From NCBI GenBank assembly GCA_028277845.1, contig JANQFL010000068.1, positions 1 through 64,000 of the forward strand: a stretch of DNA of 64,000 nt. The letters are read 5' to 3'. The position numbers and the translations under genes are program-made. Under the pieces are notes generated by a model. That model worked only from the letters and a program-made list of their open reading frames with translations. It made no database searches and was not told where the DNA came from. Each line of letters begins with the position of its first letter. Position 1 is the first letter of the stretch. Origin of the DNA: Sneathiellales bacterium. GTDB taxonomy: Bacteria > Pseudomonadota > Alphaproteobacteria > JANQFL01. Shown here one piece after another: positions 44,888 to 48,050 of the stretch.

Positions 44888-45772
44888 ATGCAGCGTCGCC
44901 ACAAAATCATTCTGGATTGCGACAACAGTTTCGGACTTCCCGGGCGCGATGTGGATGATGGGCTTGCGCTGCTCTATCTGCTCGGCCGACCGGACATCGA
45001 GTTGATCGGTGTCACCCATGCCGCGGGCAACACGACCGTCTCCGCCGCGGTACATTGTACAAGCCGCATGTTGGAACGGTTAGGCTATGACGGAATCCGG
45101 TTGGGCATGGGGTGGTCCGACGGCAATACCGATCGGCACGAAACCGATGCCGCGAAGTTCCTGGTGCAGTCCGCAGAGCAATATCCCGGAGAAATCACTG
45201 TTGTAGCGACCGGTCCATTGGCGAACGTGTCGGCCGCCGCCCGAATGGATCCTGGATTCTTCGGCCGCCTGGCGAGGATCAACGTGATGGGCGGCCGGTT
45301 TACCAGGCAGAAAGTCGGCGTCGTGCCTATTGGCGAACTTAATTTTTCCCGTCATCCGACGGCGGCGAGCGCGGTACTCCGTGCGCCCTGCCCCATCACC
45401 TTGTTTACAACGGAGGTGTGTCTTTCCGCGCCATTCCGTTGGTGGGATTTGACCATACTCCGACAATTGGACCCCTGGGTGGCACGCACGGTGTTGATCT
45501 GGATGGTCTGTTTCGGCACCCGCTACCTGCACCATGCCATCTATCTATGGGATGTCTTGCCGGCCATGGCCGTGACACACCCCGGGCAGTTCGAAACCGT
45601 CCCCTGCCGCTTGGGCCAGCAACATTCATCGCATGTCAGTGAGGGTTATCTGTCTCTCTCGGATGGACGAAACATCAATCGTGTGCGAAGCCTGCGCAAC
45701 CCTGCGAGACTGCTGCAAAGCGCGGCTTCAGCCTGGCGCCGGGCGGCGCCGCGGGTCAGGGTCATGAATTAG
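44888..45772 (+). CDS. Inosine-uridine-preferring nucleoside hydrolase family protein
   Basis: 294 residues from ATG 44888. The calcium-binding N-terminal motif is present as DCDN (D10, D12) followed by GRDVDDG (D23, D24), although with a longer insert than the canonical DTDxGxDD. VVATGPLANVSAAARMDPGF and INVMGGRF are further family blocks. It hydrolyses the N-glycosidic bond of nucleosides; purine or pyrimidine preference cannot be told. AGGAA lies 12 bases upstream; an in-frame TTG at 44810 overlaps the operator and is not favoured. The stop overlaps the convergent CRP-type gene by 4 bases. Confidence 0.8.
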   Translation: MQRRHKIILDCDNSFGLPGRDVDDGLALLYLLGRPDIELIGVTHAAGNTTVSAAVHCTSRMLERLGYDGIRLGMGWSDGNTDRHETDAAKFLVQSAEQYPGEITVVATGPLANVSAAARMDPGFFGRLARINVMGGRFTRQKVGVVPIGELNFSRHPTAASAVLRAPCPITLFTTEVCLSAPFRWWDLTILRQLDPWVARTVLIWMVCFGTRYLHHAIYLWDVLPAMAVTHPGQFETVPCRLGQQHSSHVSEGYLSLSDGRNINRVRSLRNPARLLQSAASAWRRAAPRVRVMN

Positions 45773-46485
45773 CGCGCGACCCCGTCGCCCTGCTCGCTCA
45801 AACGCTCGATCAGGGACTCCAGCCCATTCCGGTCCCGGATATACAGTGTCTTGCCTTTGCGATCCGCGATACCGGCGGCATTCAAATTGGACAATGCGCG
45901 GGCCACCGTCTCCCGCGTTGTACTCACCTGCCCCGCAATGGCGTGTTGTGTCGGGATCGGATAAATCGACCAAACGGCCGAATTCACAGGGTCGGGTTCA
46001 GCGATCCGCAGAACATAGCGGTAGACCCGTTGCATCGCGCCCAGCGTGCTGAGATCCATGATCCGGTCGTCACAGGAACGGATGATCGCGGCCAGCCGCT
46101 GAAGTACCTCCACGGCGGCCTGTGCATGGTCCAGTAAAAACTCGGCAAAGATGTCCGGAGAAAGACTGGCGAGTTGACAGTTTTCGATAGCGACCACCGT
46201 AGCCGACCGTGGTTGCCCATCGAGGGCGGACAATTCCCCAAAATAACCGCCATCCGACACCGTGGCGTACGCGACCTCCCGCCCCGACGACGAGAAATTG
46301 ACGATACGCACCGTGCCCTTGACCACGAACATGATGTCCCGGCTGTCGCTGTCCCGGTCGAGCACCTGTTCGCCACGCCGGTAATGACGCCACGTACTGC
46401 GTTGTTCCAGTTTGCGGACTTCGTCTTCCGGCAGCCCCGAAAACAGCCTTATGCCGTCCAAACGGCCTGGTAACGTTTGGCTCAC
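45769..46485 (-). CDS. CRP/FNR-family regulator, CRP-like with cAMP-type pocket
   Basis: 238 residues from GTG 46485. The cyclic-nucleotide domain holds the phosphate-binding cassette FGELSALDGQPRSATVVA, with the Glu, Arg and Ser that bind cAMP in E. coli CRP. The recognition helix STTRETVARALSNL has the R-E-x-x-x-R pattern that reads TGTGA. No FNR-type N-terminal cysteines are seen. A promoter TTGCGG-N16-TATAGA (46577 to 46550, - strand) starts near 46543, so a longer start at 46545 would be upstream of the transcript. TGTGACGGCCGTCACA lies 83.5 bases upstream of that start. Confidence 0.85.
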   Translation of the reverse strand: MSQTLPGRLDGIRLFSGLPEDEVRKLEQRSTWRHYRRGEQVLDRDSDSRDIMFVVKGTVRIVNFSSSGREVAYATVSDGGYFGELSALDGQPRSATVVAIENCQLASLSPDIFAEFLLDHAQAAVEVLQRLAAIIRSCDDRIMDLSTLGAMQRVYRYVLRIAEPDPVNSAVWSIYPIPTQHAIAGQVSTTRETVARALSNLNAAGIADRKGKTLYIRDRNGLESLIERLSEQGDGVAR

Positions 46486-46549: not shown

Positions 46550-46595
46550 TCTATATCACGTGTGGATGTGGCCGCAAATCGACACTTTTTGTGTC
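46550..46595 (-). promoter_or_regulatory. Predicted promoter of the CRP-type regulator gene
   Basis: TTGCGG (46577-46572) and TATAGA (46555-46550) with a 16-base spacer on the - strand. Immediately upstream is the perfect repeat GACAC-TTTTT-GTGTC (46581-46595), centred about 45 bases before the predicted start, which could be a further regulator site. Confidence 0.5.
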
Positions 46596-46618: not shown

Positions 46619-46661
46619 TGTGACGGCCGTCACAGATTCCAGGGGGCGCTGACGGTACAAC
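46619..46661 (+). promoter_or_regulatory. CRP-consensus site and class II promoter for a small RNA
   Basis: TGTGACGGCCGTCACA (46619-46634) is a perfect TGTGA-N6-TCACA dyad centred at 46626.5. TACAAC (46656-46661) is a reasonable -10, giving a start at 46668. The dyad is then centred at -41.5, the class II CRP position, and the -35 position has no TTGACA-like hexamer, as expected for CRP-dependent promoters. Confidence 0.65.
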
Positions 46662-46667
46662 ATTCGC

Positions 46668-46739
46668 GTGCCTCCCCGGAGGCAGCCAACCCCTAGACCG
46701 ACTTAAGGGCCCGCCGAACAGCGGGCCCATCTTTTTTTT
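46668..46739 (+). ncRNA. Predicted small RNA (about 72 nt) ending in a strong terminator
   Basis: No ORF is present. The predicted transcript opens with a hairpin TGCCTC-CCCG-GAGGCA (46669-46684), has a single-stranded linker of about 22 bases (46685-46706) and ends in GGGCCCGC (46707-46714) paired with GCGGGCCC (46721-46728), followed by ATC and eight T (to 46739). The terminator faces the + strand, where no gene precedes it: the adjacent CRP-type and pentapeptide genes are both on the - strand. The first hairpin holds CCUCC, an anti-Shine-Dalgarno motif, as in several alphaproteobacterial regulatory RNAs. Length and start are predictions. Confidence 0.6.
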
Positions 46740-46748
46740 CAGGCTCGG

Positions 46749-48050
46749 TCAGGCCGCTCCAGGCAGAATAGCGCCCTCAACGATGGCGGATGACAGATCG
46801 ACGTCGTCCAGTTTCGCGCCCGTCATGTCCGCGCCACGCAGATCCGCCCGGTGCAACGCGACCCGGCTCATATCGGCGCGGCGCAGATCGGCGCCATTGA
46901 GGTCGGCGCCGACCAGATTGGCGCCCACCATGGACGTCGGCCATTGCCGTCCGGTCGGTTTGCCGTCCCGGTCGAGAATGTCCGCCGGCGACAGGTTCGC
47001 GCCCGATAACTTGGCGTTCGACATATCCGCGCCATTCAACCTGGATCCCGACATGTCGGCCTCGTTCAGATTGGCGTACCGAAGAACGGAACCGGACATA
47101 TCCGTCATGCGCAGTGTGGCATGGTTCAGATGTGTTCCCGTCATATCGGTTTGCCGCAAATCCGCCGCGCTCAGGTTCACATCGTTCAGACCGACATAGG
47201 ACAGGTCGACCTGCACGAGATCACCGCGTTCGCCCTCCACACCGAAGCTGGTGATCCACAGAACGTGCTTTTCCAGACATTCCTGCACATCCAATGGCAG
47301 ACTGTCCTTGCTGCGCACGTGCAGGGCTTCGGACAAATCCGTCTTCATGACCCCCGCTTTTTCCAGCTCCTCGAGGGATATGTCCGTGTCGTCGAGAATG
47401 GCGCGCGCCATTTTTGCGCCGGCCAGAATAGCGCCGTCCAATATGACGTTGGACAGGTTGGCGCCGGCGAAATTGGCATGGCTTAAATCAGCGCCCCGCA
47501 GATTGGAATCGCGCAGATCCGCGTCGACCAGACTGGCGTGCCGCAGAATGGCGCCCGACAGATCGGTTCGGATGATGCTTGCATTGGACAGATCCGCACC
47601 GGTCATGTTGGCACCGGTCATGACGCCGTTGGTGATTTCGATGTGCCGAAGGTCGGCCTTCTGCACCACCTTCCCGCCTTCGGCTTCCGGCTTCACCAGT
47701 ACGCCTTCCCGCATGTCGGCATGGGCCAAGTTCACGCCGACAAGATTGGCGCCTTTCAAACTGGCGCCCCGCAGATCCGTTTGCATCATGTTCGCCTGAC
47801 GCAAATCGGCACCCGACAGATTGGCGGCGAACATGTCGGCCTTGCTGAGATTGGCACCGGTCAGGACGCTTTCTCCCAAATTGGCGCCGGTAATTTTCGC
47901 CGAATTCAGATTGAGTGACGAAAAACGCCGTTTACGCAGATCCCGCAAAGACAGGTCAGCGCGCTTGCCACCACGGCCCAACAGCCATCGTTGATGGCGC
48001 TCGATGATTTCCGCAATGGAAACTCCGCGCTTTTTCGGGTTTTTCTGCAT
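46749..48050 (-). CDS. Pentapeptide-repeat protein
   Basis: 433 residues. After a basic 40-residue head (MQKNPKKRGVSIAEIIERHQRWLLGRGGKRADLS), tandem A(D/N)LxX pentapeptides run from about 45 to 245. A non-repeat segment of about 45 residues follows (LEELEKAGVMKTDLSEALHVRSKDSLPLDVQECLEKH), and repeats resume to the C-terminus. Such proteins fold as right-handed quadrilateral helices; some mimic DNA and bind gyrase, but most are uncharacterised. No signal peptide, so cytoplasmic. Monocistronic. Function unknown. Confidence 0.85.
   Translation of the reverse strand: MQKNPKKRGVSIAEIIERHQRWLLGRGGKRADLSLRDLRKRRFSSLNLNSAKITGANLGESVLTGANLSKADMFAANLSGADLRQANMMQTDLRGASLKGANLVGVNLAHADMREGVLVKPEAEGGKVVQKADLRHIEITNGVMTGANMTGADLSNASIIRTDLSGAILRHASLVDADLRDSNLRGADLSHANFAGANLSNVILDGAILAGAKMARAILDDTDISLEELEKAGVMKTDLSEALHVRSKDSLPLDVQECLEKHVLWITSFGVEGERGDLVQVDLSYVGLNDVNLSAADLRQTDMTGTHLNHATLRMTDMSGSVLRYANLNEADMSGSRLNGADMSNAKLSGANLSPADILDRDGKPTGRQWPTSMVGANLVGADLNGADLRRADMSRVALHRADLRGADMTGAKLDDVDLSSAIVEGAILPGAA

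Follow-up and report, generated by a model that had tools for sequence, protein, structure and literature searches.

Enterobacteria are well known for small RNAs (sRNAs) controlled by CRP, and in Yersinia such CRP-dependent sRNAs are common (PMC4376681). The CRP-like receptor Clr of S. meliloti directly induces the sRNA SMelC181, whose function is unknown and which is the one uncharacterized Clr-induced sRNA named in a report that calls such cases few (PMC10127613). For the crp promoter of E. coli, a divergent RNA (tic) was described in 1986 (Okamoto and Freundlich) and reinterpreted in 1991 (Hanamura and Aiba), as cited in PMC9600491. Here we analyze a locus in a 64-kb window (the whole stretch of DNA under study) in which positions 46668-46739 very probably constitute a real sRNA gene, divergent from a gene for a CRP-type regulator. 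The features of the locus are listed below.

45769-46485, - strand: CRP/FNR-family regulator gene, proposed activator, with a cNMP-binding domain and a CRP-type HTH
46550-46555, - strand: possible -10 (TATAGA) for the crp-like gene, weak and predicted from sequence
46619-46634, no strand (centre 46626.5): CRP-type dyad TGTGACGGCCGTCACA, at -41.5 from the predicted RNA start
46656-46661, + strand: weak -10-like hexamer TACAAC (4/6), separated from the dyad by 21 nt as in a class II promoter
46668-46739, + strand: predicted small RNA gene of about 72 nt, pointing away from the crp-like gene, supported by conservation and fold
46669-46684, + strand: 5' hairpin UGCCUC-CCCG-GAGGCA, supported by fold and model match
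46685-46706, + strand: unpaired linker GCCAACCCCUAGACCGACUUAA, within which GCCAACCC is invariant; a probable pairing seed
46707-46739, + strand: intrinsic terminator, eight G-C pairs followed by ATC and eight T
46749-48050, - strand: pentapeptide-repeat gene flanking the RNA

The dyad, hairpin, -10-like hexamer and terminator located in the preliminary description of this DNA are all present, and its observation that the + strand terminator is an orphan was borne out. The closest gene on the + strand encodes a nucleoside hydrolase and stops at 45772; the crp-like gene (- strand, probable GTG start at 46485) lies in between, so the terminator needs a promoter within the 263-bp intergenic region. 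The gene list of the window holds no annotated-size + strand gene feeding the terminator at 46707-46739, and the next gene downstream of the RNA sits on the other strand. The hairpin was also considered as the terminator of that pentapeptide-repeat gene, and this was ruled out because it has no T-tract on the - strand. A separate palindrome, GACAC-TTTTT-GTGTC (46581-46595), is located between the dyad and the crp-like gene and is possibly a second regulator site or a hairpin.

TGTGACGGCCGTCACA is the sole perfect TGTGA-N6-TCACA dyad in the window, where 0.06 are expected from shuffles, and the genome to which the window belongs contains nine perfect dyads versus one match to the reversed control pattern. 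The hexamer taken in the preliminary description for a -10 element (46656-46661) does lie there, but TACAAC is weak, with 4/6 matches and without the conserved final T. The six loci that carry the RNA (the window and five Zavarzinia genomes, see below) all have a hexamer whose first base is at the class II (-41.5) position, with a spacer of 21 nt from the dyad. The Zavarzinia hexamers at spacer 21 are CACATT, CAGAGT, CACCTT, GATGGT and CAATAT; A2 is invariant in the six loci, and T6 is found in the five from Zavarzinia and is absent in the window. The distance from the end of the dyad to the T of TGCCTC is 32-34 nt in every case. Taken together, hexamer position and spacing put the predicted +1 of each genome at the hairpin foot, give or take one base, with the dyad at -41.5, which agrees with the class II geometry proposed earlier and gives the predicted RNA a consensus dyad at the distance expected of a CRP-activated sRNA. 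Near the nine perfect dyads of the genome, considering both orientations, spacer 21 accounts for four hexamers with at least 4/6 matches to TATAAT and spacer 20 for one; spacer 22 has none. Dyads with nANNNT at class II spacing number 17 in eight genomes (a count that includes the sRNA loci) versus 0 for the reversed pattern. We consider class II activation of the RNA by a CRP-type protein likely.

Folding of the predicted 72-nt RNA gives the two hairpins and nothing else (-28.5 kcal/mol, z = -3.6), and its terminator, GGGCCCGC-N6-GCGGGCCC-ATC-T8, is among the few strong ones in the window. Across the loci, the stem of the 5' hairpin and the unpaired GCCAACCC are invariant, the UGCAC-AACUU stretch is looser, and the terminator helix is kept while its sequence differs in every species. 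Terminators occur at 6/6 loci and no reading frame is conserved, as expected of a stand-alone short transcript. The combination of an invariant hairpin stem and unpaired linker with a freely varying terminator matches how trans-acting sRNAs with a seed in the linker are laid out, and pairing in trans through the linker is moderately probable. The preliminary description had assigned an anti-Shine-Dalgarno role to CCUCC. This idea fails, because the motif lies mostly in the hairpin stem rather than the loop and is not conserved, its Zavarzinia counterpart being CCUCG in the stem; judged from sequence, the conserved unpaired linker GCCAACCC would be the likelier seed. When complements of the seed were sought before ATG codons, many places were found, and the one common to both lineages appears to lie antisense inside coding sequence; we therefore claim no targets.

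Comparison genomes were drawn from the same class only (Alphaproteobacteria), and the window's genome is the sole one of its order among them. Whole-region blastn against 142 and 385 genomes returned nothing but dyads and chance fragments and missed Zavarzinia, so that recognizing homology needed a hairpin-linker pattern, TGCCTC-N3-8-GAGGC-N0-3-CCAACC. This pattern matched eight times in 385 alphaproteobacterial genomes and had 0 matches in 20 Mb of random sequence. Four of the eight matches (the window and three Zavarzinia loci) are divergent beside crp with dyad and terminator; the remaining four are without crp neighbor, dyad or terminator. Two more Zavarzinia genomes have the RNA beyond the three matched by the pattern. 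In a pattern scan of genome contigs, Zavarzinia marina, Z. aquatilis and a Zavarzinia MAG were found to carry the element. The stricter pattern gave 25 matches in genome contigs, nine of which were tested with a Zavarzinia-only model that fitted only the three Zavarzinia loci; the remaining matches look like chance, judged by organism. A protein scan of genome contigs found nothing.

In five Zavarzinia genomes the same RNA thus adjoins a crp orthologue whose protein is 47-48% identical, and all five share divergence from crp, a TGTGAC-N6-CACA dyad, the hairpin, the linker and the terminator. The common RNA motif is UGCCUC-loop-GAGGC(A)-GCCAACCC, followed by unpaired linker and terminator. Conservation of the dyad spacing and hairpins, which had been chosen beforehand as the check on the preliminary description, was found in these five genomes, and the conserved layout beside crp supports its proposal of an unannotated, putatively CRP-activated sRNA of about 72 nt. 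The neighborhood is conserved on the crp side only, and indels of 1-2 nt disrupt any reading frame. The five Zavarzinia loci come from one genus, so together with the window they represent only two independent lineages. Examination of about 29 crp-like loci of other families turned up the RNA at the Zavarzinia one only. Among the 22 best-matching loci scanned for a strong terminator opposite crp, one Zavarzinia locus (48% identical protein) has it, preceded by CTGCCTCGCACCCGAGGCGCCAACCC.

MAFFT alignments of the core that shifted the window hairpin were set aside in favor of another. Model R1 of the RNA (72 positions) includes the window sequence, so the 62.2 bits scored by the window are partly by construction. 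Model R2 is Zavarzinia only and independent of the window, and the best match that it gives in the window is 46669-46692 (20.4 bits; E 1.2e-4 over 64 kb). In a class-wide search with R1, the four true loci scored 62-87 bits and the next best match 28.5; the inspected matches at or below 28.5 bits had no crp gene and no good dyad. The 28.5-bit match (G266:C4:1086323-1086401) is a terminated hairpin RNA with a CCAAACUUAGACCGG linker and no crp or dyad nearby, perhaps another sRNA.

The protein encoded next to the RNA matches Pfam cNMP_binding and HTH_Crp_2, and scores 70.8 bits against the NCBIfam CRP model NF008732, below its cut-off of 266. Its recognition helix has a conserved RETVxR, as would be expected for TGTGA half-sites. 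The assignment of the RE..R residues to the bases of TGTGA half-sites is established for E. coli CRP. The cAMP-type pocket of the preliminary description was recovered in part: the equivalents of G71, E72, R82 and S83 are kept, but T127/S128 are replaced by C and D (E. coli CRP numbering). Clr of S. meliloti has TT at the T127/S128 positions and accepts both cAMP and cGMP (PMC10127613). One of the nine perfect dyads (G000:C76:13177-13192), identical to that of the window, precedes a class III adenylate/guanylate cyclase-TPR gene by approximately 107 bp, which ties the dyad to cyclic-nucleotide control. Activation of the RNA by the protein next door is, in our judgment, probable.

The cyclase-gene dyad has a TATCAT at about class I distance, and the regulator may feed back on cyclic-nucleotide synthesis there. 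A candidate second CRP class II sRNA or leader follows the perfect dyad at 120040-120055 of G000:C23, with a spacer of 21 nt, TATAGT (5/6), about 100 nt and then a terminator, GGCCCCGGTCTCTCCCCGGGGCC-TC-T7. Approximately 40 nt further on comes an ORF, some 264 aa long, that by eye reads like a hydratase. Perfect dyads also lie directly upstream of a pentapeptide-repeat gene, with TATATC at class II spacing (G000:C51:62824-62839), and approximately 700 bp from a pentapeptide-repeat gene (G000:C23:15776-15791); the window RNA likewise abuts a pentapeptide-repeat gene.

The dyad may have a further role toward crp itself. The Zavarzinia crp genes share a crp-facing promoter, TTGACC/G-N16-TAnnCT, that would put the dyad centre at -71.5/-72.5, the distance of a class I site, and in the window a weaker TTGCGG...TATAGA facing crp would put the dyad near -83. 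On this sequence evidence, a single bound dimer could act in both directions. We tentatively entertain, as something short of an even chance, that the RNA is a companion of CRP, the dyad being at once a class II site for the sRNA and a class I site for the regulator's own gene. If true, each rise in cyclic nucleotide would yield the regulator together with a conserved RNA arm, which would act back on its regulon or widen it, and the pairing of RNA and crp would have been kept across two bacterial orders while other neighbors changed. The dyad might instead be the autoregulatory site of the crp-like gene, with the divergent RNA mainly a by-product or a cis-acting tuner of crp, a role that has been proposed for tic. 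The symmetry of the palindrome, its position 141 nt upstream of the crp start and the class I spacing near -71.5/-72.5 in Zavarzinia are all consistent with autoregulation, and the crp leader of the window has GGGGUUGG, complementary to CCAACCCC of the linker. This linker-leader pairing, however, is no better than that of shuffled sequence in 5/6 loci, the octamer GGGGUUGG is not conserved in Zavarzinia, and a by-product would not need the conserved RNA body that is observed. We regard this explanation as unlikely, while noting that autoregulation is partly compatible with the sRNA reading, as one CRP dimer can serve both promoters.

Membership in the alphaproteobacterial suhB/MmgR (alpha-r8) sRNA family, as a divergent copy, is very improbable. 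The locus does give a full-length match to RF00519, but at 23.8 bits versus a gathering threshold of 41, and its layout and linker ending are similar; the best crp-linked copy of Zavarzinia reaches 23.2 bits, and the crp-linked locus scores among many noise matches. The window's own genome has two separate suhB/MmgR copies above the Rfam cut-off (G000:C34:25976-26053 and C31:3490-3570; 69.2 and 46.8 bits) and the Zavarzinia genomes have at least one, and because real copies sit elsewhere in these genomes the suhB identity was set aside. No Rfam family was found at the gathering threshold in the window or in three Zavarzinia loci. Conservation could also stem from a small protein-coding gene, for which there are two candidates: a - strand ORF of 35 aa and a + strand ORF whose end is at 46696. 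The 35-aa ORF (46663 to 46556) overlaps the promoter region and has its ATG at 46663 approximately 7 nt after GGGGAGG, the complement of the hairpin CCUCCCC, yet it is not conserved in Zavarzinia. Searches of the small ORFs against Zavarzinia by tblastn gave no convincing match, the weak + strand matches (E 0.05-2) reflecting conserved DNA with a frame broken by indels of 1-2 nt, and we hold a coding origin to be extremely improbable. That an ordinary terminator merely stands beside a chance palindrome would fit the weak -10 and the finding that terminator-like sites in general are not enriched in the window. Its probability appears negligible given that every element and spacing is conserved beside crp in a second order, that a perfect dyad has an expectation of 0.06 in the window, and that the hairpin-linker pattern is absent from 20 Mb of random sequence.

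From the elements, their conservation and spacing, and the linkage to crp observed here, we consider it quite likely that the locus encodes a stand-alone sRNA subject to class II CRP-type activation by its neighbor and likely to pair in trans. In the mechanism we propose, the neighboring CRP-type protein, loaded with cyclic nucleotide, would bind the dyad at 46619-46634 and activate transcription of the RNA from the class II position (-41.5). The RNA would start at the foot of the 5' hairpin, carry the unpaired linker GCCAACCC...ACUU and end at the intrinsic terminator. Its predicted function would most probably be to pair in trans via the linker with putative targets, extending the CRP regulon post-transcriptionally. 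The result is an RNA family that is physically tied to a regulator gene and that the window's lineage and Zavarzinia have both conserved. Its promoter prediction is sharp, and cultured Zavarzinia strains make the RNA directly testable.

SMelC181 is similar to the window RNA in being an alphaproteobacterial sRNA under a CRP-like cyclic-nucleotide receptor, Clr-cAMP/cGMP (PMC10127613). Clr reads GTNNCNNNNGNNAC, whereas the dyad of the window RNA is TGTGA-N6-TCACA, and SMelC181 is compared here by description only. Like the window RNA, CyaR and other enterobacterial CRP-dependent sRNAs are short, terminated and located behind TGTGA-N6-TCACA, and they are activated by CRP-cAMP (PMC4376681; for CyaR, papers cited in PMC10127613). 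They are not beside crp, however, and no sequence relation to the window RNA was seen (no Rfam match at threshold). CyaR exposes a seed of the CCUCC type, a feature that the window RNA family does not conserve. The tic RNA likewise runs divergently from crp and starts beside a CRP site, and it is under CRP control; in E. coli the starts of tic and crp are within a few nt of each other, and the effect is on crp transcription (cited in PMC9600491). The window RNA differs from tic as a short terminated unit with a conserved body and a predicted start approximately 180 nt from the crp start codon. The suhB/MmgR RNAs (RF00519) have the same order of 5' hairpin, C-rich unpaired linker and terminator, at about 75 nt, and also occur in Alphaproteobacteria. 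CRP-activated sRNAs are thus already known as a kind, and the sRNA family described here is very probably a new and previously undescribed one among them.
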